Source of the DNA: Entoloma clypeatum
Taxonomy: Eukaryota > Basidiomycota > Agaricomycetes > Agaricales > Entolomataceae
Length of the DNA: 64,000 nt
Assembly (NCBI GenBank): GCA_963565915.1
Contig: OY751492.1
Coordinates: forward strand, 2,914,001 to 2,978,000
Direction of reading: 5' to 3'
Of the stretch, positions 17,218 to 61,082 are shown piece after piece. Position 1 is the stretch's first letter, and each line of letters starts with the position of its first letter. The position numbers and the translations under genes are program-made. Under the pieces are notes generated by a model. That model was given only the letters and a program-made list of their open reading frames with translations, was not told the origin of the DNA and ran no database searches.

Positions 17218-19749
17218 ATGGATCTCAGCGATGACGACCTTCATCTTCATTGCATCATCGAAGGCGAATCCGAGGCGTTTGTAATTGATGTTGGAGGGTC
17301 ATTGTGGCACAATCAGAATTTCACAGTTAGCCACCTGAAGAAGAGAATACAAGAGGAGCGAAAAGATGGTCCGTTAGCCGGCGTTGATGCCCACATCCTA
17401 GTACTCTGGAAGGTGTGTGAGATTCGCGATGTCAGACAATGGCTTACTTCCCTGCCTTTTTAGCCCAAAGATACCAATCCCATCGATGTGAAGCTGGACG
17501 ACCTTGCGTCTGTCCGCGGCGATGAACAACTGGCTGAGAAATTACGCTCTGCTTGTCCCGTTGACTATATTTTTCCAACCCAACCTTCCCTCGATCATTT
17601 ACATATTGTTGTATGTATTGGTGAGTGACGGTGCTTTTCCATGGCTGTACACTGCTGATAGATTTTTGTTTTGGTTGTCCCCCCTCCTATCCCCATAACA
17701 CACGACTATATGCTCTGCATATCTCTGTCTCTTCTGCTCACCCAATGATGTCCCCTCGATAACATATTAATATTCTGGTGCCTTTTCTTAGCCTCTCGGA
17801 AACGCTCACGCCCGCCCACAGAAGAGGATGGTCAGTCAGCGAAGCGTCAGCAGATAGGCGAGTAAAGCCTGCCTCCGCCTATAACGAACCTTCTAATTCA
17901 CTGTCGGCTGGATGTAGGGGAGATATCGGAAACACAGAACAGAGTGGGGAGTGTGTCCGACGTACAGGCCCGTTGTGTCGCAATTCATGAGGCGATCAAA
18001 GCCATGCCGGATGATCTAGACTTGTCCAACCCTTCGACATTCACAACGCTCCCTTTCCCTTCGTTGTTCCCAATGCCATCCCCACGCTTCGAGAGGACGA
18101 AAATCAACAGCATCAACTGCTTTGAATATATGGGGAGGTCTCAATTTCGCCAATTGCAAAAGCGTGTCGAGAATGAGAATTTTCTCGATGCACGCGAAAG
18201 CCTATACCTGTATGGGACGTCTGGTTCAGGGAAATCGCATCTCCTTGCTGCGCTTGTGTACCACCTTGTTCGTGAAGGGAAACGCGTCTTCTATATTCCT
18301 GATTGCTCCACTCTCCAACTGGAGCCGGCAAAGGCGATGTGGGGGGCATTAAACTTCGCGTTCTACAACTCGGCTATTCTCGAAACCATAAAAAATCCTC
18401 ACGACATCGAGGAGTTGATTGAGTTGATGTCTAGCCTTTCAGATCTCTACATCATCGTTGACCAAGTGAACGCTCTGGAGATCGCTGAGAATGACAGCCG
18501 CACAGCCAAAAAGGTCCAGGCGTCAAACTGGCTTGACGCCTTGAGGTTCAACCATCGTTATGTATTCAGCGCTTCAGCCAACGAAACATCCAATCGAGAA
18601 GCTGATAGGAAACAAAGTGGAATTTCGGTTTTCCGAATATTTGGAGGGATGAGCAAGGTAGGCTGATAGCTCACGTTGTTCCATGCACCACTTATGCCCC
18701 ATAGGACGAAACTGATCAGTGGTTTACTCACCATGGCGATCGAATTTCCCTGTTGTCGGCTGAACAACGACAACATGTTGAATATCTCACTGGTTGCATT
18801 CCGCTTCTGCTACGCTGCCTTTTCAACTTCACCAACTTCGTCGAACTCGAATTCAGGAATACTTCCGATCTGCGTAAGGTCGCCTTGGATGTCGAGACAT
18901 TCTTTAGAACCAAAATCGCATCCCTGTCTTCGTTCAGGAAAGAAAGGTCATACATCCTGCTATTTCCCTTTCCATCTAAATCAATTTTTTCGGGCTAGGT
19001 ATTTCACAATCATGAAGGCATGCGTCCAGGGTGATCAAGTTCAAATTGATGACCGAAGCTTGTATGATTTGCGATACTTTTACGTCGACGAAAATAGAGT
19101 TGGAAGGTTTACATGCGGAACTGCCTTTGAATCCATGGTCTCAATATTGCGAACATACGACAACGCTCCATTCCTGGAAGATTCGTGGTACATATCGGTT
19201 TCACAATCCACCAATCCTGTTGTTCGAGGCTTCTTGGCCGAGCAAATTTGCCTTAGCAACATTGGTATCAATGGTCTAAAGGTTGTCCACCCAAAGCTTG
19301 GCCGAATGTCTACTACGATTTTCGCGACGCATCCAAACTTCGCCGAGTTTCTCTCCAGTGATCACGGGACCCGCCTCTATATTCCCACTGCCTACAATTT
19401 CATGGCCGTCGATGGTGTCATACTGCTGTTGGATCGCGCCTCCAAGCAAGCCACCATGTTCCCTATCCAATTCACGCTATCCCACAACCATAAACAATCA
19501 GATAAGGAATTCCACACTAGGTTGTGGCCGACGTGGATCGAGCCGATCAAATCAGCTGGGTACAGCGTTCAATCGACTTTTGTCTGGATAGACAAAAAGC
19601 AGCCATCGGAACACGTCGAACCTGAACTCGTGAAAGCACTGCGATCTGGCAATAAGGTTGTTCACCCCGAATATTCTGTGGTTCATGTGGATGTGGAAAT
19701 GGTGAATCCAAGGCTTGCTTCTGTCCTTGAAGTCAGCATTATGGGGTAG
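17218..19749 (+). CDS. Crinkler-type NTPase-nuclease protein (CRN1)
   Basis: Exons: 17218-17412, 17464-17620, a short third exon from 17792 with an unresolved end, one ending at 18657, 18705-18946 and 18999-19749. The start MDLSDDDLHLHCIIEG opens a ubiquitin-like Crinkler header (FVIDVGGSLWHNQNFTVSHL, ILVLWKPKDTNPIDVKLDDL, then DHLHIVV). A basic linker (ASRKRSRPPTEEDGQSAKRQ) could be a nuclear signal. The P-loop NTPase has Walker A YGTSGSGKSH and Walker B LYIIVDQVN. The C-terminus looks like a PD-(D/E)XK nuclease: YNFMAVDGVILL, then FPIQFTLSHNH, giving D...QxT. Known relatives are secreted or intracellular effectors, and in fungi often of unknown role. The frame is intact from header to stop if one intron is placed between about 17830 and 17921. 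It shares only the header with CRN2. Confidence 0.82.
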
Positions 19750-20426
19750 TTTTCTCGGTAGGATATATCATTAAAAATTCTATCAATGTCAGGATGTGTC
19801 TCTCCATGATGTGGTCACCAATGAAAAAAAAAACTGGCGTTGAGATGATACATCAACAAGATCGATGAAATCAAATAAAATGATATAAAACCTGTTTCGT
19901 GTCCAAATACCATTGGTATGTTAGCTTGAGGAAAATGCAACAACAAAGTCAGGTGTATCTACCCGGTCCATCCTAGGCCTTCAATATGTTTGAACAGTTC
20001 TCTGAACCTCATGTGTCGAGGTGCCATCAAGGGCACTGGTTGGCAGAAGACCACTATAATATTCTGGTTGAGTCGGGTTGAGTTGAGATCTCAAGACTCC
20101 ATGAGACACTTAGGCAGACCTTATCCCTGATTTTTTCCAAAACCTTTTATTGAACAGCATGCCTTGCAGATGCAGAGAAAGCCTGGTTAATGATACTCAC
20201 ATTGAAGTGTAGAGGTTGAGATTGTTAGAAGAGTGGGCGATAATGGAAGTTGTAGAACTTGTAAAGCCTATTATGCTACACTACTTACATGCAGTATTTA
20301 TACCTATGAGAGTGTGCACAGACCAATAATGAGCAAGTAACACTGTTGGCTAGAAGGTGATAGAACCCTATGGAATATCACTGGTACACAGTAACAAGGC
20401 TGTGATGCGCAGCATTCTGAGTCATT
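19750..20426. other. Gene-free stretch between CRN1 and the LINE
   Basis: CRN1 3' flank up to about 19970. At 20034-20146 lies an inverted match to the dispersed repeat of the palindrome arms (10917-11060). From 20147 to 20426 I see no gene, only anonymous sequence with GTAGAGGTTGAGATTGTTAG and TATGAGAGTGTGCACAGACC. Confidence 0.6.
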
Positions 20427-20429: not shown

Positions 20430-22682
20430 GTGTCGCGCCACAACCATAATGCTTCTCTGCTTGCAGACTTTGCGTTCTCACACGGACTTGTTTATCAAAG
20501 GACTGGGTTCACCCACTTTCCTAAGAATAACAATGCCCCCTCCATCATCGACTTGGTCTTTCTCTCTAACACGGACAAAGACTCAATCATTAAACTCGGT
20601 AGCCCAGACGAGTCGGATCACCGCTCGATTGTCACCCACCTCAGATCTCCCGTCATGGACGCGAGGCTCTACCCCCGCATCACGGTGGACTTGGAGGAGG
20701 AAACCCTCTTCCTATCTGCCCTTACGGAATCCCTTGCCTCTATCCCTATCCTGGCCTCGGCCTCTAGGGAAGACCTCACTAGTATTACCCAAATGGTACA
20801 GGAACGTGTCCTGGCCAAGTGGACCTCTCACGCGAGCTCTCCCTGGGATTCGTTCCAGTCGAAGGGCTGGTGGGACAAGGACTGCAAGGCCGGATGGCGC
20901 ACCTACTCCAATTCGGGTAAGACAGACCAGGACTGGCGCGCTATGCACAAAATCATTCGCACAGCCAAACGGAGCTTCTTCAACAAAAAAATTGACGATG
21001 TCTCCAACAAAAATAAGTGTCCTTGGGACCTTACTGCATGGGTCGGACCGAGAAAGAACGCCTCCCCGGAGGCGGTTATCTTTGACGGCAAGACCTGCTC
21101 CTCTACTGCCGAGACCTGTGAGGCATTTCACAAGTCCTTCCAATCCGCTGAGGCACGCCCCATCAACCCCGACAGGCTGCGCAGTGCTCCACAACCCCAG
21201 CCCAAAAGGCCGTGGGTCCCATTCACATCGCAAGAGGTCCTCCAGGCCCTGGCCGGCTGCTCAGGCAGGTCAGCCCCTGGTCCCAATCATCTTATATGGT
21301 CTCATCTCAAGTGCCTAACCGCACATGAGCACATTTTGAAGCTCTTTGTCTGGATCCTGAACGCTTGCCTCTCGGCAGGGTTCTGGCCCGACGCCTTCAA
21401 GGTCTCAACTACCGTCATTATTCCTAAACCGAATAAGCCGGCATACAACGTTCCCAAGGCGTTCCGCCCCATCGTGCTTTTAAACACCCTGGACAAACTC
21501 TTTGAGAAAGCTATCGTTAACAGACTACAGTGGGAACTCGCCCGCCACGGTCTACTGCATCCAGGTCAATTTGGGGGGGTTCGCCAGAACTCCACTGAAG
21601 ATGCCGGCCAATTCCTCACTCACCTCATTCGTGCGGGGTGGGCAAGGAAACTCAAGACAAGTGTTGTTGCCATCGATTTGGCACAGTACTTTCCCTCTCT
21701 CAACCACTCGGTTATTACACTTGTATTGGATAGGATGGGGTTCCCCGACACCGTCGTGGACTTCTTCTCTAACTATCTGATAGGAAGAAAGACCCAATAT
21801 GCCTGGGAGGATGACCTCTCAGACCTCTTCTCTGTGGATATCGGCGTAGGCCAGAACTCTGCCCTCTCCCCTGTGCTCTCATCCATCTACCTCGCCCCGC
21901 TGATATACATGTTTCATGCTGAACAATCACAGGCCATCCTCATCTCCTACGTCGACGACGGGACCATCATAGTTCAGTCAGACACGTGGAAGGTAAACCT
22001 TGCCAAAATAAAAAAAGCATACAAGTGTCTGTTTGAGTTGAGCTCGTCCCTAGGGCTGGCCCTTGAACATACCAAATTGGAGGTGTTCCATTTCTCCAGG
22101 ACAAATGGTGACGAGAACCCCCCGGTTGATCTTGGGTATGTGCCCTTCACAGGTGACACCCCCCTCGTCCCCAAGACCCTCTGGAGGTACCTGGGCTTCT
22201 TCTTCAACCGCAAGCTCCTCTTCACAGAGCACGCGAAACGGTATGCCACTAAGGCCTTCTCTGCTACGGGAGCCTTATTATCCTTGGGGAACTCTGTTCG
22301 CGGCCTCTCCCCCAAACACAAGCGCACCTTATACCGATCATGCATTTTGCCGATCACATTATACGGTGCCAATCTATGGAACTTCAACGGCGCCCGTAAC
22401 AAAGGCGTCATCAAGTCTATCTCCAGAGTCCAGAGGCATGCAGCCCTGTGGATCCTGGGTGCCTTCCGCACCACCCCTACAGGGGCGGTCGAATCCCTTG
22501 CCAGCTTGCCTCCGGTGCATCTGCACCTGAAGAAGCTATCCTGCAGAAACTGTGTCCACATGCATTCTCTTGCACCAAGACATATGACCGTCATGGTACG
22601 CGACGAGGAAGATCCCTCCAAGCGACCCTGGTACTCCCCTGAGTTTATGTACAACCTTAAATCCCCCCTCGTCGACATCTGA
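20430..22682 (+). pseudogene. LINE ORF2 part 1: endonuclease C-terminus and reverse transcriptase
   Basis: About 750 residues. Residues 1-75 are the end of the EEP endonuclease with the SDHRS histidine. RT motifs include ALAGCSGRSAPGPNHLIW, STTVIIPKPNKP, FRPIVLLNTLDKLFEKAIV, VVAIDLAQYFPSLNH, GVGQNSALSPVLSSIYLAPL and the catalytic YVDD near residue 507 (ISYVDDGTIIV). A thumb-like region with LGFFFNRKL follows. The frame ends at a TGA that is in the same frame as the RNase H part, so it looks like a nonsense mutation in a longer ORF. Confidence 0.9.
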
Positions 22683-22709
22683 GCTTACCGTGCAAATGTT
22701 ACAGTCCCC

Positions 22710-23831
22710 TTGTCCCCATTCAATAATTACAACGCTCCAGGCAAACGCGTCCTTGACCGCTTCCCTGATCATATCATCCACGACATCACCCTTATACGCG
22801 GTAAAACTGTGAAGGATCGTGCCGAAGCAAGAAAACTGTGCCTCATCGCCCTTAACAAGGTGTTTGACGCCAATATCTGTTCCAAGAAATCCGCGGTCAT
22901 AGTCACGGACGCGGCTGTTCCCTCCCTCACGTCAGGCCACCAAGCTGTTGCAGCATGGGAAACCTGGCATATGGGATACTCCATCAACAAGGACTGGGCG
23001 GCCGGCGGCCTCGCAGTCTCTGACGACACTGAAACCTTAGCCATCGGACACGGGTTCTCCAACATGGTCAACTTACTAGGGGGTCTATCTCAACTGGAAG
23101 AAATCCACATCTTCACCGACTCTGTCAACGCCATTAGGCGTGCCACAGACCCGGACCTCCACTCTGCGCAGGCATCTGCGCTTGCCATCATCAGCAACCT
23201 GGTCCCTTGGTTTGAGGAACCTGGTCTGAAATCAAGAGTGTTCTTCCACCATGTCCCAGATTGCTCGGACCATGGCTTCGAACCGCACTGTGCAGTGCAC
23301 GACTTTGCTTCCTCAATCCATATTGAGTGTGGCAAGTCAGCCTCCAGATCCCTTAACTTCAATATGAAGCAATTCACTGATGACATGCTTAAGGATTGGG
23401 ACGATCTGTACCAGTCCCCGAAGTACGTCGGCAGCCATTATCAATTCCTGAGGTCATGCGTCAGACGCCAAGACCATGCCCGGGCTAAACGCATGAAGCC
23501 ATCCCATCTCAAGGGCGGCACTTGGCTCAAGGATGTGGGTCACTCCCAATCCCTCACAGCACAAATGGTTCGCGGCCTCACCAGCCATGCCCCAATTGGC
23601 CACTATAGACATAGATTCAACATCGGAGACAGCGTTGAACAATGTGACTGTGGAACGAGGTCCAACGAGGACTTCACCCACGCTTTCTACAAATGTCTGC
23701 ACCACCCTACCAGGCCGCCAGATATGCCCTCCTTCTCGAGGAACACTCCCATTTGGGACGTCTTCGAAAAATTCATTATGGACAACCCTGGGGCATTCGC
23801 CTTCAGGGACCGTCCACAACCTAGTCAGTAG
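22710..23831 (+). pseudogene. LINE ORF2 part 2: RNase H and zinc-finger-like end
   Basis: Same frame as the RT part, separated only by TGA at 22680-22682 (LVDI-stop-AYRANVTV). The RNase H core has VIVTDAAVPS with the first aspartate, LSQLEEIHIFTDSVNA with the glutamate and second aspartate, and a HHVPDCSDHG segment where other RNases H have VPGHSG. The end holds EQCDCGTRSNEDFTHAFYKC, a C-x-C...H...C arrangement common in LINEs of this kind. Confidence 0.85.
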
Positions 23832-23936
23832 GGGTGATATATCAAATCCTAATACCTTGGCACGACTGTGTTGCATCCACAGCATTAATCACAGGTAGCT
23901 GGATGATATATCACTCATGATATATCACCCTCACTG
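23832..23936. repeat. TGATATATCA-bounded repeat at the inner edge of arm B
   Basis: Relative of 11082-11187 and 31140-31245. The right half, from AGCTGGATGATATATCACT onwards, is shared with arm A (13447-13486). The left half (CATTAATCACAG and the outer TGATATATCA) is absent from arm A, so the duplication boundary falls inside this repeat at 23894. Confidence 0.7.
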
Positions 23937-24800
23937 TAATATATGACAGCAGTTCTGTTTGCTGGTTCACGCAACGTAGTCAGTAGGCCTAATATATGCT
24001 TGTGCACTATTCCATTTTTAATTCGTCGGCTTAGTTATTTTTATTTCTTCCTGATCCCGATCTTACCTGCCCCATGCGCTCCCCGCGCGCCTGCTGCCGT
24101 CCTCACGTCTTGGGTGCCGTTTCTCACCGACCTCTGCGTTCCCTCGGCTGTGTTCCCTCAGCCGTTCCTCGCGCATGCCCCACTGTCCCCGCGCACCCCG
24201 CCCCACTCCCCACGACGTATGCCACTGCCGTTGTCACCCTCCCCCTCTCTGGCCACTGCTTTCGCCTCCCGCGCCATTTGGCAGACGGGTAGGTGGTAGC
24301 AGTGGGCAAGTTTGGGGTTGTGGACAGTGGGGTCGCAGCTCTCATCCCGTCTGATTGGGTCCCTCGTCCCGTCCTGTCTCTCATGCCATCATGTCCAGCC
24401 CCCATCCCGTCCCATCCCCGGTCGCCCGCCCTGTCCCGTTCGTACCGTTCGTCCTGTCCTCCGCCCCCGCGTATGGCCCCGTCGATGTGGTGTCAGCACC
24501 ATGGATGCGGGCGTTGATGTTGAGGCTGGGCATTGATGGTCAAGATGTGAAGTTGAACATTCCATCACATGACTTCATTATTGAGGTTCGGAAAAAACAC
24601 AGATTACCGTACAGTATGCCATCCATCTGATAGTTCTTTTAGATATTGCAAGAATACACAATTTGTAAGACATTCCTTCGAATGAGATACTTGCAAAAGC
24701 CCAGACCCTGAAAATGAAAAGGTCAGACAACAGGTGCAAGAAATAGCCCAAATCTCAACTCAAACTTACAAAATAAGTGCTACCTACTATTGTCTGAGTC

Positions 24801-25111
24801 TGTTGAAGTTCCACCTGGGCGCTAGCCACAGGTGTACTGAGCAACATAGCTACAGTGGAAGTACTCTACAATACCGCTATGGTCACTTACATGGTTTGGA
24901 GGGGGTAAGGCTAGTGAGAGCGGTTGAGGCTGGTGAGAGCGATGGAGCTGGTTAAGAGTCAAGAGACAACTTGTTGATATTGACAGTTTCCTGGTCTTAT
25001 ATACCGTACTACTGTTTGTACCAACCAAACAAGTATGTAATTGAAGATGTGTAAAGGTCACGTGATGTAATCTAATCTAATCTAATCTACGTGATGGGAA
25101 AAGTTTCAACA
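24801..25111 (-). repeat. Copia 3' LTR
   Basis: 311 bp. It differs from the 5' LTR at five positions, all of them CpG in one copy and TpG or CpA in the other. It is followed on the internal side by CCCCCCC (25112-25118), i.e. the G-rich polypurine tract on the element's strand. Confidence 0.95.
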
Positions 25112-25120
25112 CCCCCCCAT
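25112..25120 (-). other. Polypurine tract of the Copia element
   Basis: ATGGGGGGG on the minus strand directly abuts the 3' LTR, the usual site for plus-strand primer formation. Confidence 0.7.
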
Positions 25121-25179
25121 ATTTAGTACATACTTCTAAATACATCTTACTTTTTCCCATATAGGTACTCTTTCTTCGT

Positions 25180-28100
25180 CTAGTCTTTAAGTAATCCAAA
25201 GTACGGGATAAACTTGTTGAAGAGGATCTTCCCCAGATTCTTAGTTAAAAGGTCTGCAGGGTTATTCACTCCTTCGATGAATTCGACCGTAATAATTCCT
25301 TCGGATACTTTTTCTCTGACAAAGTGAAATCGCACGTCGATGTGCTTGGACCGCTTTTCAGTTACAGGGTTGGATGCGATAAAGACGGAGCCATTGTTAT
25401 CTCCATAGATCGGGACTGATCCGATCTGCATTCCAAGTTCGGCAAGCATGCTTCTAAGCCATGTCACTGCGCGACTGCAATCTGATAGCGCCATGTATTC
25501 TGCTTCTGTGGAAGAGAGGGCAATGGTTTTCTGTGCTGACGAAACCCATGTTACTGCTCCAGACGCCAGTGATATGAAGTAACCAGTAGTGGATTTCCTG
25601 GTGTTTTCATCTGATGCCCAATCGGAGTCTGTAAATGCGTAGATCCCTTTCCCAGAATCGCCATCGTACATGATCGCGTAATCTTTTGTCGCCTTCAAAT
25701 ACCTGCAAATATCCCTAGCCACTTCTAAATGGCGTTTGGTAGGGTTTGCGGAGAATTGGGACATTTTGATCACGGCGAAACAAATGTCAGGTCTTGTCCC
25801 GATCATTAAGTACAGTAGTGACCCGATGATGGATTGGTACTTGGATCTGAGTTCCGTATTGGGTTCATCCTCAGACTTCATGGGTTTGTAGCCCGTCGGG
25901 AGTGGGGTATGGGTGGCATTAGATTCGCTCATCCCCATACGTGCAAGAATTTTCTCAAGGTAAGGTACTTGATCAATGAAGATCTTCTTCCCACGTTGCC
26001 TTATTTGGATTGAGAGAAATTCCTTTGGTTTCCCATCAGGCACTAGGTGACCTAGGTCCCTACATTCCCATGTTGTCATGAAGGCCTTCTTCTTTTCTAG
26101 CGTATATTCCCGGTTTGTGCCGAGAAAAGCAGAGTCGTCGACATAGATGACGGCAATTACAATTTCCCCGTTGGTACTTTTGTGAATGAACACTCCCGCA
26201 TCGGAGTGAAGCCGGACAAAGCCGAGCTTTTTCATGGAGGAGTCAAGTTCTCTTCACCAGGCTAATGCGGCCTGCTTAAGTCCATATAGAGCTTTGTATA
26301 GTCGGTACATGAGGTGTTCTTTCCCTTTTACTACGTAGCCCTCAGGCTGTCGCATGTAGATGACCTCACGGAGCGTTCCATAGAGGAAGGCTGATGAGAC
26401 GTCCAAAAGTGTCATGAACCACCCTTCAAGGGCTGTCAATGCCAGTATTAATCGGACGGTTTCATATCTCACGACTGGTGAGAAGATTTGATCAAAGTCG
26501 ATCCCTTCTACCTGTGAGAAGCCTTTTGCGACGAGGCGCGCTTTCAGACGCCCATCGGATTTTTCATTGTAAACCCATTTGTTCCTTAGAGCTTTCCTCC
26601 CTTCAGGCAGGGGTACTAGCTCCGTGATCACCCCGCGGCGTTTGAGCATATCTAGCTCTTTTCGTTCAGCCGCATACCAGTCTTCTTTATTTGGAAGAGG
26701 GTATATGTCCTTGTGAGACATTTCAACGATGCCAACTTGGACTGATATTGCCTCCATCAGGAGGTCATTCATCCATGCCGTTTGACCGCCCAATCTCCGT
26801 CTTCGATCTAATTTTTCAAGATCAGACACTGGAGTGTCTTCCCCATAGATGCTTCCTGGCATCTTCCGAAATCGTCGTTCCCTGATCGGTCGATCTGGTA
26901 CTTGCTCGGGTTCCGGAGTGGGTACTCGCGGTTCGTCATCAGGCTCACTGGCAGGCATTTCGTTGTCTGATTCAGGTTGATCCTGTTCAATGGGAACTGT
27001 GTTATGAGGTGTTTCGTTGTGACTATCGTCGTCATTGCTGCCGGGGATGAGATCCTCAAACTCATCAGCTGGCTCTGGGTTTTCCATTTCTGGATGGTTT
27101 TCTGGCAAAGGGTCGATGTGGCATCTAGGGTACTTGCTCTCATCAAAGATCGCTTTCCCACCCATGAAAATCGTATTAGTCTCAGGATCCATAAAGCGGT
27201 ATCCTTTGACTCCTGGTTTCAATCCGAGATAAATCATCAATCGTGATCTGGATTCCAGGGAGTTTTTCTGTTTCTCTTTTGGGATATATACATATGCCTG
27301 GCATCCGAAGACTCTGACACTTGACATGTCGGGGATCTCATTAGTCACCCTGAAGTAAGGGGTTTTCCATTCAAGACGCTGCATGGGGGTTCTGTTGTAG
27401 AGGAACGCTGCATGTTCCAAACAGAATTCCCACCACATAGGTGGTAGACACGCGTCGAAGCGCAAAGCTTGAGATTTTTCCCATAGAGTTCGATTGATCC
27501 TTTCTGCTCTACCATTCTGCTGATGCTGATATGGGAGTGTGATATCGATCAGAATTCCATGGTCGGCAAGTACATCCTTGTATTCGTCGAACTCTCCACC
27601 TCCATCAACTCGCCACTTTTTAGGGGTAGCAGCGAACTGATTCTGGATCATCGCAAGAAATTGTCTTAGTGCCGTGATGGCATCAGACTTCTTTCTAAGC
27701 AAGACGATCCAGACGTGGGATGAGAAGTCGTCCAAAAACGTAAGGAAATATTTGTATTTGTGATAGGATGCCGTGGATATCTGTTTGAGATCAGAATGGA
27801 TAAGATCGAAGGTTTTGGTTGCTCTTGTCATCGAATTGGGGTATGATTGATTCGGCATTTTCCCTTTGAGGCAACCTGTACAACTTTCCTGTGATTTCTC
27901 ACGTACTAGTGTCTTAGGTACCCCTTTGGTACTGGTGGGAATCTTTCGAAGTGCTTGATCATTTGGGTGACCAAGACGCTTATGCCAGGTTTCGACAGTG
28001 ATTTCGCTGGAGATCACGTGGATTTGGTCATGGCATATTTCAGTGTCTAACCAATAAATGGTTTGTCCGAGAATGTGAGGCGAGAACTGTATTTTGTTCT

Positions 28101-31139: not shown

Positions 31140-31245
31140 TGATATATCATGATATATCACCTGTGATGTATCACCTGGTGGACCTGTAATTAATGATGTA
31201 GATGTAACATGGCTGTGCTATAGTTAAAGGACTATGATATATCAA
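31140..31245. repeat. About 105 bp TGATATATCA-bounded repeat, arm B copy
   Basis: Exact counterpart of 11082-11187. Begins GGGTGATATATCATGATATA and ends ACTATGATATATCA. Confidence 0.6.
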
Positions 31246-33265: not shown

Positions 33266-33317
33266 GGGGTGTAGAAGAGATCGTCCCCCACGTGACACAA
33301 ATTTTGTTGGAAATGGC

Positions 33318-48956: not shown

Positions 48957-51900
48957 TCACAATATTAGACCACTGAAAACATCTCTGTATACAATATTTG
49001 CAGTTTTTCTATCTTCATTGCCTGCTGGGAGCAAAACTTTGATGCGATCACCGGAAGTACATCGTGACAATGCGACATAGAGTTGCCCATGAGAAAAGAC
49101 AGGTGTGCGCAGATCAAGTCCTACATTTTTGACTGACTGGCCTTGGGATTTGTTGATTGTCATTGCAAATGCAAGACGGACAGGAAATTGTCTTCGTCTG
49201 AGTGGAATAGGAAGTGTTTCTGCAGATGGTTCCAAAGTAATTCTTGGAATCAATGCCAGTTGTCCTGCAAACTTTTGATCACCACTAATGATTCTACATT
49301 TCAGAACACGTTGACCAACAGCAAGAACTATTAAACGTGTTCCATTGCAAAGACCTTTGGATGCTTCCAGATTACGAAGAACCATGAGGGGACATCCAGT
49401 TTTCATTGTGAGTTTTGAAAGTGGTAAACCACTTGCTTTGAGTGAATTGAGAAATTCCACAGGATATGGCTGATTTGTTCCATTATCATCAAGGTTGACA
49501 GAATCTGCACTCAACATAACATGCTTCTCACGATTGGGATAAATTGTATCAAGTATAACATCATTAATAGCATCAACATCATTGTTTTTGGGAGACAAAA
49601 TTGTTCTGTCCAAGAAGTACTGATCTTCTTTATCATTGTCTCCAGAGATGTTTGGATATGTTGATGCAATAAGATTGTCAAGTGTATTATCTGTGAAGCA
49701 CATTTGCTCAGGTAATTGCACAGTATCTTGATTATCACTACCGGTTCCAGCTCCAATATTCAGCAGCCAAGCAGCATGTCTGTCACTGTCGGGAGTTCTG
49801 TCCAAGCGCATATTTTGTGTCAGATAGTGGACTTCCACCTGTCCCCAGAGATTGCCTTTGCAAAGAGAGGCATTGACAATTTGTTCTCTAGTTCCTTGAG
49901 GTACTACAGGAAGTGTTTGTCGAAAGTCACCACCAAAGACTACTGTTATTCCTCCAAAAGATGCATTGGGTTTGTCTAACAGATCTCTAAGACCCCGATC
50001 AACAGCATCAATAGCATACTTGTGTTGCATTGGAACTTCATCCCAGATAATAACTTTTGTCTTTTGTAAAACCTCATAGATTGGTAGACTGCGTTTGAGT
50101 GATGCGACAGATGTTTCATTGATGTGAATGGGTATTTTGAACCTTGAGTGTGCAGTTCGACCACCCTCAAGAAGCAATGCAGCAATGCCAGAGGATGCAA
50201 CACACAATGCAACACCACCTTCCTCAGATCTAACTGTGGCAGCAATTGTATTACACAAAAAGGTTTTTCCACCACCACCACCACTGTGGATAAAAAGCAT
50301 TTTTCCCAGGTTATTATTGACAGAATCGAGTACAGCATTATAAACAGATCGTTGTTCATTATTAAAAGACTGACAATTTCTTTCCACCAACTGAATGAGT
50401 TCATCATGATCATAGTCTAATTGTTCATGCAGTAGATAATTGTTGGAGAGATGTTGATTCCAGTCATTTCTAACAGGCAATGGCATGGGTGGAAAATCCT
50501 TCAAAGTTTTGCCAGACTTCATGAGAATATTGTTCAATAGATATAGTCCATAATCATAAATTTCATCTTCTGATAAATCATAGTTTGGAAGCATTCTTTC
50601 CAGTCTAACTCTCAGATCATCACATATATCAAGCTTGAATTTATCCCATAGAATATCTGGTTGAGCAGGAAAGCAGTTCAATAGTATAATAGCAAACAAT
50701 GATCTGAGTGATGAGCCAGGCTGCATCTGTGTAGCCTCTCTCAAACACTGTTCCCACTCATAATCGTCTTCCAATAACCCACGCTGCAGACAGACAGCTT
50801 TAAAAGAATCAAATGTCTCTCCATTGAAAGTACGCAGATATTGGAAAGAAGTAGCTCCAGGAATAACAGTCAATAATAGTCTTAGATAAAACCGCTCTCC
50901 TTGAGCAGGAGATGCAAAGTACATGCGTCCAATAGCAGGTGGACTCCTAGTCCGAAGTGTCCACTTTTTGGTTTTTTTATTAAAAGAATATTTTTTAGGA
51001 AAATCTTGATAAAGAATCTGCCGTGCTTCTATATTATTATCATCAGCATTTATTTTGAACCATGCAGTCAGTTGAGTTTCATTGATATTTCTCCGTGATA
51101 AAACCTCATCAATAGTATCTTCTTCATTATAATAAACCAACTGTTGGTTTGGCAAATGAACAGGCAAACGATACACAGCTGGTGATTCAGAGTGCATGGA
51201 AAATTCAAAGATGCGCCAGCATGCTTCAGATGCAGATATATAACGTGCATCAAGAAATTCCTTGATTTCATCTCTTTGAGCTCCAGATGAGAGTTCAATA
51301 GTAGTTTTATCAAAGCCTTTATAGATGTACTTGTGAATATACTTGACAGCATGAATAGAAGCACAGATTTCAACATTGATGTGACATCTGTATTTGGCAG
51401 ACAGATAAGGGTTGTATGGTACCACATCTCTGATAAGACCAATATTAGCATAGGATCTTGTTTGAAAGCAAAAAGGTACATACTTGTTGGTATAGATATA
51501 ATCACCCTTTTGAAAGTGAACACCATTATCACGTCTTCTGTATTTTGGATAGCCATCATCTCCATATAGTGTAGTTGGCTGATAAGACTTTGGAAAGTCT
51601 TTTCTGCATTTGTTATTTATCATACATCGTTCACTGCAGGGACCATGAACCATAGACTTTGTTACAACATCATATAGTATTGGATGTTCATTCTTGTCAG
51701 GAATCTCAGCACAGACAATACGATCCACATCTTCAGCACTTCTAATTTTGCAACTCTCATCAAGGAAGATTAGCAGATGCATATGAGGAAGACCTCTTTT
51801 CTGAAATTCAATTGTATGAACCATAGCAGCAACCTTTCCAAAGACACGACCTTCTTTTATTTCTTTCAACAAAGCATTCTTTTTTTCTTCAAACACACAC

Positions 51901-54780
51901 ACAACAATATCTGGTCTATCAGAAACAGTTTGTTTTCTTCCATTCGGATTTGTGAGAAGATTTTCCAGAATCTCAGGCCAAGATGGATCAGCAGTCATAG
52001 TCAAGAAGATATCAGGCTTGCTAAAAGCCCGGCAGATTGCCATAGAATCTTGAAATAGCTGCTGCATATGTCGTTCACTTCCAATAAAAGAAGATGGAAG
52101 AATGATACGCTGGCCATGATTAGCAAGGTCAAACTCAGCATTTGTGTCATTCCGAACCACATCCTGAAGGCCTTGATAAACTTCAGCTCTTATTTTTTTC
52201 TGATTGTGTCTAGTCCAGTTCAATAGGTTCTGTTGAGTAGAAGCCCAAGCATCAACAACAAACTGCTGAAGTAGCTTTGATCCCCAGAACAATGGAGGTA
52301 GATCTCTGATATTGACTTCTCTGTAATGTATACGATGTGCATAGTAGCATCTTTCACTAACAAATTTACATCTGACTTTTCCATCAGGGCCAGGATATGA
52401 TGGAATAGCAGGAAACCATCCATTTTCACCATAGGGAAATAACAAAACATAATGCAGAGAGGCGTAAGATTTATGAAGATGACTGATCCGGTGCAGAGCT
52501 CCATCTTTTAGACGAAGAACAATATCTCTGTGATTGGAATATTCTTGAGTTCCATCTCCTGGTATCAAGACAGCTATTTCATCTTGAGCAGTTACATCAT
52601 TGTATCTTCTTTGATCACCCCAGTCAGATCGGAGTACCATCTGAAAATTCTGCTGTTGTTCAGCAGGTTCTTCACGTATTCTCTGGATAGCTTGTTGATA
52701 CAGTTGAATATAAGGATGAACATTAAGCAGCATGGCCTGAAGATCAGCCACAACTTCAGATCTTAGATTGGGATTTCTTCCCATGCGTATTTGTTGTTGA
52801 ACAGCAGGATCATTTATATATATTTGAGCATATCTTGGTACTTCACCTTCTTGTGGTAATAGAGTACCACATCGATGATGAAGTTCACCATTTATACGAA
52901 AAGTATATGGTGCAGGTGCACCGGCAGTAGAAAGAACAGAATGGTCAATGTTAACCCCCAGAGAAGTAAATGCAAATGCTGCATTGTATTGGCGGATATT
53001 TTCTATAAAATGTGCAGAGTATTCATGTGAGCCAGAAAACAGTCTCCAAAGTTCAGGTGGTGGTGGTCTCAGAGGAGTAAGCTTTACTTGGCCTTGAAGA
53101 CAACATATGCCAAACTTTGGATTATTCTTGGTTGACTTTGAGAGTTTTTCAGAATCAAAATGTAGAGCATTGCAGTGAGAGCATTCAATATTCATAGGAC
53201 CCAGATAATGAGGCTCAGGCTCTGGTGATCTGTATGGACCATAACCCAAAGGTATAGTCTGTCTGTTATTTCTCTGAGGCTGATTCTGTTGAGGCTGTTG
53301 TTGATAAGGGGCCAATGCAGGTGCAGCAGAGATATTTTGATTTTGATTGATTATCTCCTCCTCCTCCTCCTCCTCCTCATTATCTTCCTGCTGAGCTCGC
53401 TCTTGTTCTCGTCTGTTTATACGCTCTAGTCTGGCAAGATCATCTTGAAGAGCCTGCTGTCTCTCTAGTTCTTCTTGTTCTTGTTGTGCCAGTCGTCGAT
53501 CTTCTTCTATTTGTCTTTGACATGGATCAACATCATCATCAAGTTCTGCTTGTCGTTCAGCTTCCAGCTGTCGCACATAAGCCATATATCTCTGAGCAGC
53601 ATCAGCATTTCGTAGTTGTCTGTCTGGATCCTCATCCATCCGGGCAAGACGTCTCATTTCTTCTGCCAATATATTATTGGTTTCTCTTCTTTCAGCTGCC
53701 AGTTGAGCCTCAAGTTGTTGTCTTTCAGCCAGTGCCAAGCGTCATTGTTGCTGTTCAACCTCTAACTGAGCATCAAGCCTTGCCTGTTCATCTGCCCTGA
53801 TCTGTTCCTGTTGAAGAATTTCTGCCTGCATTTGCTCTTGTCTCTCCTGCTCTTGTCTTTGAATCTGTTTCTGCTGCTGAAGTTCAGCCAGCAAATGTGC
53901 ATGCAAATATGCTTGCATATCATTCTGGTGTCTCCTATGTTCTTCTTCTCTTCTTCTGATATTCTCCTGTTGCAGAGCTTCAGCCTGCAGTTCCATTTGT
54001 CTTTGACGCTCTTCTCTTTCAATACGAATCTGTTCTAACTGGTTTGTTATAGCTCTATGATTTGCAGCAAGCTCCCGATGAGCAATCTGACCACAGTGAA
54101 GATTATTCCATGCAGGATTGGCCTGATTCCCTGATAAATGATGAAGAGGTCCAATAGGTGGTCTAGTACCTCTTCTAGTTGAACGTGCAGGCAGAGATGG
54201 AACAATAGGAATAGGATTTTCTAGAGGTCTATCCCAGTTCTCAGGCAACTGCACCTGAGGTATATCATCAACAGAAATAACAGACTGAACTGCAGGCTGT
54301 ACTTGTAGTATACTGTTCTCAGATAGTCTCTGATAATTTATCCCAGATGGCAAGTTGAGTATCATAAAAGGATCATCTATAGCAGCAGCAGCAGATATTC
54401 CAGACATAGCAACAGAAGGTCCAGAAATAGCAGGCATAGCAGCAGAAGACCCAGCAACAGAAGCAATAGGATTGGTGTTAGACAATCCATGAACAGGTGG
54501 AACATACACCTGCGGAATATTAGCAGCAAGCATAGATCCAAAATTGAGGAGAGGAGCAGCATCAACAGCTGGTGTAGAACGTCCACTGCGGCTACGACGA
54601 TGATCAGGATCAGTCATCTGGTTACGACGCAGACGGTCAGTCAATCGTGCACTATGGCGTGCACTCTCGGGAGTTGATGGGGATGTGGGACGGTGAGGAG
54701 TGGCAGGGGGAGTAGTAGAAGTGGACCTAAGACAGTCAGTTTAATCAGAAATGATAGAAATATACATCACTCACATGTTT
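48957..54780 (-). pseudogene. Helitron Rep-helicase, one in-frame stop
   Basis: A single frame of about 1,930 residues on the minus strand, split only by TGA at 53739-53741 (EVEQQQ-stop-RLALAERQQ). The N-terminal part is low-complexity Q/E/R-rich and coiled-coil-like. Next comes a zinc-finger-like CSHC...CC segment, then the Rep nuclease with the HUH motif GLPHMHLLIF (near residue 650 of the downstream frame) and the tyrosine motif VKYIHKYIYKG (near 800). The PIF1-type helicase has Walker A SGGGGGKT (near 1150), VIIWDEVPMQ, VFGGDFRQTLPVV and a C-terminal MTINKSQGQSVKNVG...YVALSRC. The first codon may be split by an intron (AT, GTGAGTG...CTTAG, G at about 54724-54770). Rolling-circle transposition would need the missing read-through. 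Confidence 0.9.
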
Positions 54781-54814: not shown

Positions 54815-55290
54815 TAACGTCACCTTGAAGATTGAAGATTCAATACTCAGAATGCCCTAGATCAGAAAAAAAATCAGCTTATATGATGACAGATTGGCTA
54901 AAAGGAGTTAAAACCTGGTTTAATGACTGAAAACAGTTAGAAAAATGGCTTATAATATGATGCTATGCATAACCCACCTTGTCTGAATAGCAAGAATAGT
55001 GAGTCAATACTCAAAAAGTCCTATATCAACAAAGATCAGCTTATCTGATGATAGATCACCTCAAAACAACCAAAACCTGGTTAAATGGCTGAAAAAAGTC
55101 AGTCAAATGGCTTGTAATATACTCCAAAGCACTACTTACCTTTGAATAATTTGCAAGAATGATGATTCCAACCTCCCAGAACCCTGTAGCAGCAAAGATC
55201 AGCTCATCTGATAGTAGATCAACACAGATCAGCCATTACAATGAGAAAGCCTGCTTAAATGAGTGATAGAAGTCAGCCAAATGATTGATG
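54815..55290. repeat. Three degenerate tandem copies of about 155 bp
   Basis: Each copy has the order AAGATCAGCTTATCTGATGA, then AAAACCTGGTTAAATG, CTGAAAAAAGTCAG and AATGGCTTGTAATAT. The copies start near 54815, 54985 and 55145 and diverge by roughly a quarter. They sit directly upstream of the Helitron reading frame, in its promoter or 5' region. Confidence 0.75.
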
Positions 55291-55433
55291 CATGGCCAAT
55301 ACATCACACACAATGTGTTTTGTCCAATGTTGAGGGAAGAGATGGGTGGGGAGCAAAGAAATGTGGAAGGTGAGGAACAGAGGTGCGCTTTTGCTTACAT
55401 AATTTTGATGAATTGATGATGGAGCCTTCGCCC

Positions 55434-55570
55434 TCGGACAGTACATGGGAGGGATTTTGCTTAAGTAAGACTTACCAATCCTGACTCAGCTTACTAAGAT
55501 TCATCAATCTTAGTCAGTTCTGACCAATCTTAGTCATCGACCCCCCCCCTCCCACTTGTTATAGACGAGG
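55434..55570. repeat. 137 bp direct repeat, copy 1
   Basis: From CGGACAGTACATGGGAGGG to CCCACTTGTTATAGACGAG; copy 2 is 56510-56645. After the shared TATAGACGAG the two copies continue differently, which marks an element boundary. Confidence 0.9.
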
Positions 55571-55623
55571 GTATGACCCGTGCCGTATGGCGCGGGCGTG
55601 AGAAAATGCGCCATACGGCACGG
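55565..55623. repeat. Helitron-flank repeat with a 16 bp perfect hairpin
   Basis: ACGAGGGTATGACCCGTGCC at 55565 also occurs at 48704, in the same orientation. CCGTGCCGTATGGCGC (55578-55593) pairs perfectly with 55608-55623 around a 14-base loop. It is likely to be a terminal hairpin of the Helitron or of a related non-autonomous copy. Confidence 0.75.
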
Positions 55624-56507
55624 AGGTTGGTGTGGTGCGAAAAAGTAACTGTTTGTGTCCATAATTGATGTATTATAGAATCATTTTTCCAAAAAATTGC
55701 ATCACATGTATGTCTACTGCACTCAAGCCTCCTGCCTTTCTGTTGTTTACCCGTTGCTTACTGATTGCAAAAATCTGGGTTTTCCACTAAAACTGGTTGG
55801 TAAGTCCAATCACTTTCTGTTGTTTACCCGTTGCTTACTGAGTCGCTTCAACAAAATATTTAATATTGACAAAATGATGGGGGAAATACATTCCACCTTC
55901 TGTATCCTTGATTTGTGCATTGAATGAGTGAATTTGACTGGAGGAGTAAGGGAAATAATGTTCCAATCAGTCATGAAACCCATGTTCTCCCCATTTTTCT
56001 ATATTTCAACAAAACACTGAATATAAGCAGATCCGTGGAACAGATCCCTATTGTCTCTTTTGTCCCTTGCATTATCCATATCATGGATGATTTTCGCCGA
56101 ATGAATAAGCTGGGAATTGCCTATATACAGTACACACCCTGACCCCCTCCTTTCTGCTTATTTTCATAATATCAACAGATCCGTGGAACAGATCCCTATC
56201 ATCTTTTTTGGCCCTTGCATTATGCATATTATGGATGATTTTCGCTGAAGGAATAAGCCAGAAAGTCCCTACACAAATTGTAACAATTCTGCAGTCTCAT
56301 CAGGCAAATATCTTATTTCTTTACAGCCATTCATGGTTATTTTTATTTTACTCCATATTTTGTTCAGGTTACTCAAATACATGCTACAAGACATGGCCCA
56401 CATAGTATACATACCTTCAGTGAAAGGATCCACAATATTCAGTGAATTGATGGCTGCATCAATGGATTGATGGGAGATTGATGGAGCCATGGCTCGTGCT
56501 TCGCACT
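55624..56507. other. Gene-free repeat-rich stretch right of the Helitron
   Basis: Holds two copies of CTGTTGTTTACCCGTTGCTT (near 55739 and 55818). It also holds two of the AGATCCGTGGAACAGATCCC...GATTTTCGC(C/T)GAA family (56030-56112 and 56170-56262), distantly matching 12323-12415. No gene seen. Confidence 0.65.
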
Positions 56508-56509
56508 CG

Positions 56510-56645
56510 TCGGACAGTACATGGGAGGGATTTTGCTTAAGTAAGACTTACCAATCCTGACTCAGCTTACTAAGATTCATCAATCTTAGTCAGTTCTGAC
56601 CAATCTTAGTCATTGACCCCCCCCCTCCCACTTGTTATAGACGAG
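56510..56645. repeat. 137 bp direct repeat, copy 2
   Basis: Matches 55434-55570 with few changes and ends in the same TATAGACGAG, here followed by CTTATTAACCCGTGCTTCGC. Confidence 0.9.
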
Positions 56646-57520
56646 CTTATTAACCCGTGCTTCGCTACGGCAGTGAGCATTGCTCGCGGTGCTCGCAAAA
56701 GCTCACAACCGTTGAGCTTCGCACAGGTCACAGCTCGTTGGGGGCTGCCGCCCCCAAACCCCTGCTGCCAGTTTTTGTGCTCGCCAAGGCTCGCCATATC
56801 CTATTTCTAGGGTTCCATTCATCGAACTTATTCTTTTAACCTTGGCACTCGCCAAGGCTCCTGCTTGTATACAAATTTTGTGCTCGCCAAGGCTCACAGA
56901 GAAAGTATCTTTATACAATGTGTTATGGCGCTCGGACCTGCGGCCCTCGCTTGTCTGGTGGAATAGTAACACTTTACGCAATGTGTCATGGCACTCGCCA
57001 AGGCTCCTGCCTGTATACAAATTTTGTGCTCGCCAAGGCTCACAGAGTAAGTATCTTTATGCAATGTGTCATGCCGCTCGGACCTGCGGCCCTCGCTTGT
57101 CTTTTAGAATAGTAACACTTTACGCAATGTGTCATGGCGCTCAGACCTGCGGCCCTCGCTTGTCTGGATTAACCCGTGCTTCACTATGGATCACAGCTCA
57201 TTGGGGGCTGCTGCCCCCAAACCCCTGCCACTGTATATATTCTTGTGCTCGCCAAGGCTCACCATATCCTATTTCTAGGGTTCCCCCCTCCAGGGGGAGG
57301 GGGTGGCGGATGCCAAGGCTCCTGTCTGTATACAAATTTTGTGCTCGCCAAGGCTCACAGAGTAAGTATCTTTATGCAATGTGTCATGCCGCTCGGACCT
57401 GCGGCCCTCGCTTGTCTGGTGGAATTTACACAATGTGTCATGGCGCTCAGACCTGCGGCAGTAACATAATATGGTCCTCAGATCTCCTGCCCTTGCTTGT
57501 GTGCCCAAGGACTCACCCAA
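56646..57520. repeat. GC-rich array of interspersed tandem units (Helitron-like)
   Basis: Recurring words: CTCGCCAAGGCTCACAGAG, TCGGACCTGCGGCCCTCGC, TTGTATACAAATTTTGTGC and AACCCGTGCTTC. Units of about 150 bp start near 56853, 56990 and 57315. GGGGGCTGCCGCCCCCAAAC is a strong hairpin at about 56739 and recurs, with one change, near 57204. Open frames over this stretch are repeats and not genes. It is probably one or more non-autonomous rolling-circle elements. Confidence 0.7.
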
Positions 57521-58050: not shown

Positions 58051-61000
58051 TCAATTTCCGCTAGCCATCGCATCTGCTTTTCGCTTCTTGGCAAGAGCAT
58101 GCTCCATCGGTTCCAGAACACCCCTAGCCTGATCCTCTGCAACGAAGTGGGCTCTGAAGGCATCCATATTGATGGTGGCTAACACAACACCTGTGCCGAG
58201 CGCAGCAATAGCATTAGTGACAGAAGCGGCCCCTAAGTTGAGATCGGGAGGAAGTGGGTAGCCACCCACGAAGCGGAGGACACGATGCCGCTCTATGGCA
58301 TGGATGAGTTTCTGACGTAGATGAGATGGCTGTTGCAAGATTCAGAGCGAGCTGTGCACATGGATGAAACCAATGGACTCACCGACTTCTTAAACCAGTG
58401 GTCTTGATGCAAAGAAGTGAGAGCATGGCTGATCGTTTTCGCATCGAGGGATTCTTTGTTACCCACCGTGTAAGACTTGAATTGGCCGATCAAAAGGGCA
58501 TTCCCACACCATACCAAAACGTCTGGGCCAAAGAGGATGCTGGGAACAAGCACCGCCGGCGTGGCGGTCGGGTTTTCAATCCACTTTAAAACCTCGTGAA
58601 TATCGGCCGCATATTGCACCGCGCCGAGACCCGGGTTCTGCGGGGCTTCTCCTATAACATCCACTGCTACGGCAGTGCCATCAAGACGTCCAACGATCTG
58701 GGTCCTTTCGTCAGCCCATTGAGGAATGGTACCGTGAAATTTGAAAATTGTGCTAAAGGGGACTGGGTAGCGCAGTGCTCGAAGCAGATACAAAATGATC
58801 AGCTCCTCGTAAGCAGGTCCACGAGAGGACTGAGAAGCAAGTCGCGTTCGGAGATTTGTTTGCAAATTGAGGTCAGGGTGATTATCGAGCCACTTCAACA
58901 GGGACAGAAATGCAAGTGGCTCGACTATTTGACCCCCGTGTCTGTCGCGGAGACGAGCTAACCCATACTCGACAAGTCGGACAGTGACAGGTCCGAACGT
59001 CGGAGAATCCCCCTTAGTCAAGTGAGACTGTATAACCTGGGCTGCTTCTCGAAGTGCGACCGGATCTGAGCTACGTGAAATGAGGAAATGGAGGTTGAAG
59101 GAAGAGCTTACCCGCCTGGAGTCTATCCCATTCAAAACCGGTCATCGAGACCGCGATATTCAACTCAGGCTCATTCAAAGTAAAAGGAAGGCCACTATCG
59201 CCTGGGAAGCAAGTCGTATGTTCGTTGATAAATGCATTCAGCAGTTTGTGTGGCGATTCCAGCCCATTCGTCAAGAGGTATTCCAGAAAGGATACGGAGA
59301 AACGATATCTGCTGTCGGTCAGATGGACTCTGTCGGTCTAAACGAAAGTGTCTGCTCACCGACCCAGAAGATATTCCTGAATCCGTTGTTGCAAGCGATA
59401 CCCAGAACGTGTCTCTAAAAAGGAAGCAGGGAGGTACTGTTCGAGGAACTTCTTCAATTTCGGCCAGGTATCGAACATCCCAAGATTGTGGAACAATTCA
59501 ACTCCAATAGGTTTTGACACTCCAGATGCCATGGCTTCATGTAGGTCCTCTAGCGACACGCCTGTACCGGACACAACGAGCTTGATCGGCATGTTGGTGA
59601 AGACTTTAACTATTTCGCGGAGGATTGATCGGGTTACTTCCTCGCTTGCGGATGATATAAAGGAATAACGATATAATCGGACGGCCTGCTGTGCTTCGTC
59701 TACCCCAACTATGAAGTGCGCGAAAGGCATATATTTCTGACGAATGGTACCCAGGCGTCCAATCAATATGTCAAGAGCTTCATTTGAGGCCTGGCGAAGA
59801 CAACCCCTCATAATCTGAACAAATGGATGATGGTCGGTCCTGCTTGGGTTGGACAACTGGAACAGCAACCAAATGCGCTTATGCTTTTCCTGCAATTCCC
59901 CGTCGACATCGATCGCGAGCTCTAGGAACAGTTGGAAAGCCACTATGCGTGCAGCCATAACTCTCTTGAGGAGCCTAGATGCAATCGTGCGGTTGATTTC
60001 GCTACGAGCAGCGCGTTTCTCGGAAGATAGCGGGCGAAGGTCGGATATCCATTCACGCTTATCAGCGGCTTGATCCAAAGAATACCGCAAATCTGGGACG
60101 CCAACGCCGTTGCTATCCGGAACTACAACAAAGTAGAATCCCCAGTACACCGTGAGGCATTCCAACATGCGCCGTGTTTTCCCTGATCCGGATGTGTTGC
60201 AAACGCACCTACAGCTTGTGGTGAGAATAGTTCGAAGCACACGTAATAACTGCATACATGTGTCGAACACCTTCAAATGTCTTTGTGATTTCAGCACGAT
60301 CGCACATATGGAGATTATGAAATAGAAGACTTGGGTTGCGATTCTGATAAGCTGGTATTTGGAGGCTTGCGAGAAAGTCGCGGTTGCTCGGCGTGGCGTT
60401 GTCCGGAGGAACCCAGGTGGGTGGCTCAGGACTTTTCAGAAATGTCTCAACCACCGCGCGAAGCGATTGGAGCTCCTTTCCAATCCGCTGGTCGATTATG
60501 TCGATATCGAAGTTATACTCTGTCGGTGTAATGTTCCGCTTCGCTACTGCCAACGAAGTGGGCAACCAGTAGATTTGAGAAAATCGACGCGGTTGCGATG
60601 GCAATTGGAAAGGAAAGTCGGCAATGTTGGGGCAAGAATCTATCAGCAGTTACAGCCATGGAAAAGCACCGTCACTCACCAATACATACAACAATATGTA
60701 AATGATCGAGGGAAGGTTGGGTTGGAAAAATATAGTCAACGGGACAAGCAGAGCGTAATTTCTCAGCCAGTTGTTCATCGCCGCGGACAGACGCAAGGTC
60801 GTCCAGCTTCACATCGATGGGATTGGTATCTTTGGGCTAAAAAGGCAGGGAAGTAAGCCATTGTCTGACATCGCGAATCTCACACACCTTCCAGAGTACT
60901 AGGATGTGGGCATCAACGCCGGCTAACGGACCATCTTTTCGCTCCTCTTGTATTCTCTTCTTCAGGTGGCTAACTGTGAAATTCTGATTGTGCCACAATG

Positions 61001-61082
61001 ACCCTCCAACATCAATTACAAACGCCTCGGATTCGCCTTCGATGATGCAATGAAGATGAAGGTCGTCATCGCTGAGATCCAT
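58051..61082 (-). CDS. Crinkler-type NTPase-nuclease protein (CRN2)
   Basis: Exons by splice joins that keep the frame: 61082-60888, 60836-60680, 60639-60258, 60208-59360, 59311-59112, 59070-58383 and 58329-58051. The header (MDLSDDDLHLHCIIEG to DHLHIVV) is identical to CRN1; the rest is unrelated at sequence level. The body starts DSCPNIADFPF. Then come QIYWLPTSLAVAKRN, Walker A CNTSGSGKTRRML, Walker B FIVGVDEAQQA, VVSGTGVSLEDL and GRRYRFSVSFLEYLL. A nuclease-like end follows (FGPDVLVWCGNALLIGQFKS, i.e. D...QxK), then a basic tail AKKRKADAMASGN that could be a nuclear signal. Length is about 915 residues. All frames are open, so the gene looks functional. By family, probably a nuclear or host-acting DNA-processing effector; its role in a fungus is unknown. 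Confidence 0.83.

Follow-up and report, generated by a model that had tools for sequence, protein, structure and literature searches.

A 64,000-nucleotide stretch of contig C11 of the Entoloma clypeatum genome (C11:2914001-2978000, hereafter the window; the assembly comprises 60.1 Mb on 20 contigs) carries two predicted genes, CRN1 and CRN2 (loci L009 and L010, respectively), which appear to be Crinkler-type, effector-like genes that start with the same header, that is, a two-exon 5′ module ending in a phase-1 intron. The header class found in both genes is termed A, the bodies behind it are B1 in CRN1 and B2 in CRN2, and another, non-Crinkler 5′ module found in front of B1 is termed X. A first-pass annotation of the window had interpreted the pair as a cassette system, where one mobile header block with its promoter is put in front of different bodies. 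Our analysis points with good probability to another history, in which the fronts and bodies of Crinkler-type genes are reassorted through breaks within an intron, CRN1 being such a recombinant, and in which gene conversion probably acted later among the headers.

The junction was located at 17665..17668 (+), within the predicted intron 2 of CRN1 (17621..17791, +), the splice signals of which are present in the sequence. The DNA to its left is homologous to CRN2 and the other class-A headers, while that to its right is homologous to the X-B1 genes L013 and L015, which were 99.86% and 99.82% identical to CRN1 over 2,763 bp from 17665 on. The fronts of CRN1 or L018 gave no BLAST match at 0.01 to those of L013, L028, and L030. 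CRN2 proved to be collinear with L016, L017, and L019 (contigs C10 and C15), starting in the 5′ leader and throughout the body, with mostly 93-99% identity per 150 bp; a part of exon 1 was more diverged (0.77-0.83 to CRN2 and 0.78-0.93 among the three loci themselves). At the junction, the CRN2 header runs into the same linker as these relatives, and it is CRN1 that departs there. The polarity implied by the cassette idea was thereby reversed: CRN2 appears to be the ordinary gene, and CRN1 and its sisters seem to be recombinants, in which header A would have replaced X. The X-B1 copy L030, approximately 10% diverged, remains collinear with L013 to the left and right of the junction point, and because it keeps this arrangement across the junction, X-B1 is probably older than A-B1. 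The sister locus L012 shares its 5′ flank with CRN2 (none of 871 aligned sites differed in three segments) and is 99.96% identical to the X-B1 gene L013 over 2,621 bp from the junction on; since it keeps a CRN2-type 5′ flank together with an L013-type 3′ part, a single break-and-join is favoured over an inserted cassette. The 5′ flank common to L010 and L012 reached the edge of the examined stretch, which lies some 2.7 kb 5′ of the header block, and L011 was 99.98% identical to L013 over 5,094 bp.

The header DNA query gave at least 22 matches in the genome, from which six short pieces were set aside, leaving at least 16 class-A header copies on six contigs (C6, C8, C10, C11, C13, and C15); this number is a lower bound, since only the best candidates were scored by the search. 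What follows these copies bore out the view that one header class precedes different bodies. B1 stands behind five of the 16 (L009, L011, L012, the truncated L014, and the degenerate L018), B2 behind four (L010, L016, L017, and L019), and a B2-related body behind six, of which L020-L023 and L025 showed 26-31% to the B2 NTPase (P-loop nucleoside triphosphatase) and L026 was assigned by DNA similarity to L020. The remaining one, L024, has no body and is followed by a Copia-like polyprotein, as read by eye. B1 was also found behind other 5′ modules. A protein search of the genome with its NTPase exon gave 12 matches at 10 loci, four with header A (L009, L011, L012, and L018), three with front X (L013, L015, and L030), two with other Crinkler headers (L028 and L031) and one, L029, with no front recognised in the short stretch examined (L029-L033 were examined as short stretches only). 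It was also observed that the B1 bodies behind header A (CRN1, L011, and L012) and behind front X (L013 and L015) are 99.8-99.9% alike.

Header and body do not co-evolve. In the header tree, built from exon 2 and the start of intron 2 of 15 of the 16 copies (the truncated L024 was left out), a single clade of the five B1-bearing headers was rejected by the approximately unbiased test (p-AU 3.7e-5). The body tree was calculated from six rows of the B1 NTPase exon, where L011, L012, and L013 were not re-entered, being the same as L009, and the distant L031 was left out; here a clade of the A-headed bodies of L009 and L018 was rejected with p-AU 1.6e-46. The L018 body pairs with that of L028 (94%), a locus with a different header, and the L009 body pairs with that of the X-fronted L015 and next with L030. 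L009, L011, and L012, which have header A, and L013, which has front X, are identical over 717 bp of the NTPase exon. The comparison of header and body trees proposed in the first-pass annotation thus gave conflicting histories.

L018 on contig C6 represents a second join. It consists of header A, intron 2, and a part of the B2-type linker, followed by B1 from about 8 nt before exon 3. Because this junction differs from that on C11 and the body is the sister of L028, the L018 join is independent of the C11 join. L018 is probably dead, as no match to the nuclease part of B1 was found at this locus and its NTPase exon contains a frame break.

Judged from the sequence, front X derives from a cellular gene by copying of exons. 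Its exons are 87% alike to C15:3651479-3651954; the similarity begins at the start codon and reaches into exon 3, in which the cellular gene continues as a long proline-rich exon. This latter exon gave 158 protein matches, the 120 listed ones coming from many agaricomycetes, and two among these 120 were named EH domain-containing by a source; it had no Pfam match. In X-B1, a donor site closes the third exon after 30 nt, in phase 1 like the Crinkler header, and the gene is broken at the same intron point as the CRN1-type genes. Exon 1 of X was found at four places in the genome.

The four fronts examined in this respect, those of CRN1, CRN2, X-B1 (L013), and L018, are all predicted to end in phase 1, and candidate phase-1 donors occur at the same place in L026, L028, L031, and L032. 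Twenty further header ends were taken, of which 19 were scored (L057 was not). A GT[AG]AG candidate donor was present 13-16 nt after the profile match in seven of the 19, each in phase 1, and the scanned stretch held two other donors, one each in phases 0 and 2. The binomial p value of this agreement (7e-13) was judged too strong, because some headers are near-copies and the offsets were picked after looking. The earlier claim that a breakpoint in an intron keeps the reading frame is in line with these data, inasmuch as both examined joins are intronic and the fronts are phase-compatible by their predicted exons.

The header frames of CRN1 (16984-17463) and CRN2 (61316-60837, reverse strand) had been described as identical; they are nearly so, differing at one of 480 positions (17046, T/C). 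In the self-comparison of the window, the alignable block (16975-17668 on the forward and 60633-61325 on the reverse strand) showed 99.4% identity over 694 bp. Exon 1 (195 nt) and exon 2 (157 nt) agree in length, phase, and donor sites in the two genes. Exon 1 of CRN1 (17218..17412, +; 65 codons, phase 0) contains the first half of the Crinkler N-terminal domain and matched Pfam PF20147 with E 5.1e-7 and 30.8 bits (cut-off 24.6), and that of CRN2 (60888..61082, −; 195 nt) has no substitution relative to it. Exon 2 (17464..17620, +, in CRN1; 60680..60836, −, phase 1, in CRN2) ends in CRN1 in phase 1 at GTGAGT, directly after an HIVV motif, and alone it remained below the cut-off (13.7 bits). 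When intron 1 was read through in a genome search, both C11:2931239-2931613 (CRN1) and C11:2974687-2975061 (CRN2) reached 48.1 bits, thus both headers are classified as Crinkler N-terminal domains by the PF20147 profile. By eye, only variants of the LxLFLAK-like and HVLVxxP-like motifs were seen, namely ILVLWK and LHIVV at the ends of exons 1 and 2, respectively.

Homology was said to run through exon 2 into intron 2 and to stop within about 50 bp, and in CRN1 it indeed extends over the first 48 nt of intron 2, the predicted length of which is 171 nt. The predicted intron 2 of CRN2 is 40 nt long (60679-60640), and the shared block reaches seven bases into CRN2 exon 3. The block does not mark the upstream limit of homology, contrary to the earlier view, since similarity goes on 5′ of this 690-bp unit and is interrupted in CRN2 by an insert. 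The CRN1 region 16784..16979 is homologous to CRN2 61991-62205, with 3.6% substitutions versus 0.3% in the header, and a second segment, 14523-15405, corresponds to 63097-62204. The insert itself (61326..61990, 665 bp) has, as read by eye, terminal inverted repeats (TIRs) with CTATCGTTAACCCAGT ends and a TA duplication; its site is empty in CRN1, and it lies within the stretch common to CRN2 and L012. No open reading frame (ORF) of 200 aa was listed inside it.

The near-identity of the two window headers looks like the product of later gene conversion, as L009 and L010 differ at two of 689 sites from the leader to intron 2 versus 26 of 599 in the two upstream segments (Fisher p 2e-7). Exon 1 proved to be mosaic between contigs in a test of 13 copies and 112 polymorphic sites. 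The run of consecutive polymorphic sites without a difference was 68 long between L011 and L012 (0 of 3,000 shuffles) and 36 long between L017 and L021 (global P 0.0007). L012:3690-3884 on C11 and L023:2600-2794 on C15 (both in gene orientation) agreed over 64 such sites; this last agreement probably reflects conversion between contigs. Synonymous divergence among nine copies was 0.224 in exon 1 versus 0.063 in exon 2, and the ratio of nonsynonymous to synonymous differences (pN/pS) was 0.51 in exon 1. Exchange of old haplotypes would explain the divergence of exon 1.

The two bodies are unrelated at the sequence level, as the first-pass annotation had stated: the hhalign probability of the C-terminal profiles (A1 vs. 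A2) was 0.6%, and self-BLAST of the window (E ≤1e-5, rows of at least 60 bp) gave no segment linking them. The other half of that statement, that both are NTPases plus nucleases, stood for the CRN1 NTPase, and is suggestive for the CRN1 nuclease and a matter of motifs for both parts of CRN2. In CRN1, the first B1 exon (exon 3, 17792..17857, +), which starts at a 3′ splice site and encodes a basic linker resembling a nuclear localization signal by eye, has an end set from a putative GC donor, and a homologous exon is present in L018, L028, and L030. The limits of the following P-loop NTPase exon (17917..18659, +) were likewise deduced from splice signals. It matched IstB (9e-7, 29.1 bits, cut-off 24.1) and nSTAND1 (3.6e-6, 27.3 bits, cut-off 27.1), so the CRN1 body is predicted to contain a P-loop NTPase. 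The middle exon and the C-terminal nuclease-like exon extend to the stop codon (18704..19749, +; internal limits tentative), and the PD-(D/E)XK-like features of the C-terminus are suggestive of a nuclease. In CRN2, the exon 3 open frame with the linker and the start of B2 (60212..60639, −; 3′ end not fixed) is collinear with L016, L017, and L019. It is followed by an NTPase-like open frame (59359..60231, −), in which Walker-like motifs (NTSGSGKT and VDEAQ) were recognised by eye only; no Pfam match was obtained at 0.1, and the frame had 18 matches in the genome. The C-terminal open frames (58054..59093, −) comprise one with an E..D..QxK motif (58296-59093), in which E96, D191, Q204, and K206 are conserved at 90% or more, and a tail (58054-58341). 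The AF2 (AlphaFold2) pLDDT of the C-terminal frame was 62.4, and its fold comparison gave no useful match.

Some further features of the window and of the header loci were recorded. CRN1 is surrounded by a large inverted repeat (1-13486 and 23894-41006), of which 9.9 kb is 99.99% and other pieces are 99.7-100% identical. A 200-N gap (1121-1320) is present in one arm and a Copia-like element in the other; the ends of this element (24800-25111 and 30232-30543) resemble long terminal repeats and are 98.4% alike. Both arms carry a 253-aa ORF (3138-3899 and 38428-39189), the latter copy of which, when scanned, gave no Pfam match at 0.001. Directly downstream of CRN1, an RVT_1 reverse transcriptase ORF is followed by a second ORF (20430-23831, +), resembling a long interspersed nuclear element by look. 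At a distance of approximately 4.3 kb from the CRN2 end, there is a Helitron ORF (48957-53738, −) that encodes Helitron_like_N and PIF1 helicase domains, and short direct repeats are clustered 3′ of CRN2 (54837-57459). Elsewhere in the genome, Crinkler headers are paired in tandem approximately 100-300 bp apart (C2:266264-266959, C2:473243-473947, C13:3182388-3183092, and others), possibly forming double-header genes. Broken class-A copies were seen as well: exon 1 of L014 has a 5-nt insertion, that of L017 and L019 single-base deletions, and L019 has no ATG at the usual position. About 150 bp of 5′ leader (L016:2781-2931, gene orientation) is similar in L017 and L019 and absent from the C11 headers.

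In the history proposed here, a body standing behind a phase-1 intron would evolve apart from its header, because rearrangements ending in such introns would yield a gene that can still be read, irrespective of the attached body. CRN1 would have originated when one break in the introns of a CRN2-like gene and an X-B1 gene joined the 5′ part of the former to the 3′ part of the latter, for which a deletion between tandem neighbours would be the simplest route. The array may have been amplified after this join, and later ectopic conversion among dispersed headers may have produced the near-identical headers of the window and the mosaic exon 1 elsewhere. The presumed output is a new pairing of a delivery or targeting front with an NTPase-nuclease body, attained in one step with the frame kept. 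Several observations weigh against this history. The deletion route was deduced from the flanks and no intermediate was seen; exon limits and splicing are predictions from sequence alone; and everything comes from one assembly with a near-identical array, in which an assembly error is possible. Twelve of the 19 further headers, among which are most headers of C2, as well as C13, are without a phase-1 donor, therefore the intron border is not general. The 64-site tract of L012 and L023 alone had a global permutation P of 0.12. In exon 2, pN/pS was 1.11 over 48 codons in the nine copies, thus selection on the header is possible. The B1 bodies on C11 are highly alike while the header flanks differ by 2-5%, so body homogenisation must be added to the account. 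Decay is evident in L018 and in L028, its relative by body (a frame break or stop, and truncation), and the NTPase exon of L030 also has a frame break; consequently, these loci are evidence that joins happened, not that they worked.

A mobile header cassette, in which the promoter and exons 1-2 transpose as a discrete TIR or Helitron element in front of other bodies, could account for header copies on six contigs, and a Helitron with Helitron_like_N and PIF1 domains lies within the window. We nevertheless regard it as very unlikely, since unit lengths vary by pair (from 3.5 to 6.3 kb where both sides are visible), the L010 and L012 flanks remain common far upstream of the block, and L012 keeps DNA of different parents on either side of the junction. 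Inspection by eye of the unit borders in eight locus pairs (two on the right side only) revealed no TIR, target-site duplication, or constant end, although no systematic search was made, for Helitron ends either. On these grounds, the discrete mobile block of header and promoter assumed in the first-pass annotation was not supported. The near-identity of the window headers, and a C11-type 9-bp deletion at the end of exon 2 that is common to L010, L009, L011, L012, and L014, could also mean that CRN2 is the hybrid, a homologous crossover in the conserved header having put the CRN1 header on a B2 body. This alternative is improbable, if somewhat less so than the cassette, because CRN2 is collinear with and about equally diverged from L016, L017, and L019 over exon 2, intron 2, and the body, and the abrupt join occurs only in the CRN1 type, with the same break in X-B1; conversion of one window header by the other at a later time would be part of the favoured account, in which CRN1 is the recombinant. 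An artefact of assembly or haplotig duplication, with reads merged or mis-joined in a repetitive array, might be suspected from the near-identical copies, the 9.9-kb inverted repeat at 99.99%, and the 200-N gap. It is the least probable of these explanations, hardly compatible with a junction that differs between C11 and C6, and the C6 join, as compared with the L028 body on C2 (94%), and also the X-B1 copy L030 (90%) are too diverged for misassembly of identical reads.

If CRN1 arose by intronic recombination, this fungal genome keeps such swaps fresh enough for the junctions to be seen in one intron and in phase, and with both parental flanks visible and the former partner identifiable, the mechanism of modular effector evolution becomes testable. 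The front need not be a Crinkler header, as the 5′ end of a cellular gene precedes the same body, which bears on the role of the header and on whether all such proteins go to other cells. A bolder and rather doubtful extension is that the phase-1 intron after the Crinkler motif acts as a standing socket for combinatorial effector building. If true, any phase-1 front, even cellular 5′ exons, could join toxin bodies, interchromosomal ectopic conversion would keep reshuffling header exon 1, and each of the three parts, front, header surface, and body, would be free to vary on its own, in a manner comparable with antigenic variation.

In Phytophthora, Haas in 2009 is said to have found recombination of the N- and C-terminal parts of CRN proteins at the HVLVVVP motif. 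The present genes resemble that system in having a conserved header, diverse bodies, and a border directly after an H-[IV]-V motif. Passages of Shen 2013 (PMC3726527) and of a review (PMC5289972) treat this motif as the recombination border of oomycete Crinklers; the former also give 32% and 35% of genes for shared N-termini before unrelated C-termini and for the converse, respectively, and mention exchanges of short fragments. Reassortment of headers and bodies is already on record for oomycetes. CRN amplicons picked at random from P. capsici and sequenced in Stam 2013 (PMC3607596) were without introns. Compared with the Phytophthora CRN genes as portrayed in these excerpts, the border here is a phase-1 intron with the breaks inside it, and one body also has a non-Crinkler front from a cellular gene. 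The Crinkler-RHS (CR) proteins have ubiquitin-like headers and bodies with P-loop NTPase and restriction endonuclease domains in the portion of the review concerned with them (PMC5289972). They are matched by the PF20147 header, the B1 NTPase with its PD-(D/E)XK-like C-terminus, and the corresponding motifs of B2, whereas front X is not among the headers named in that portion. Bacterial type III effectors, for which Shen 2013 (PMC3726527) mentions terminal reassortment, are similar, going by that mention, in that ends are newly joined by non-homologous recombination, and differ in that the joins described here are eukaryotic and intron-borne, with the parental flanks kept. The literature searched gave no report of intronic phase-1 junctions whose parents can be traced, of a front end from a cellular gene, or of a header exon 1 that is mosaic across contigs, all of which are seen here in a basidiomycete.

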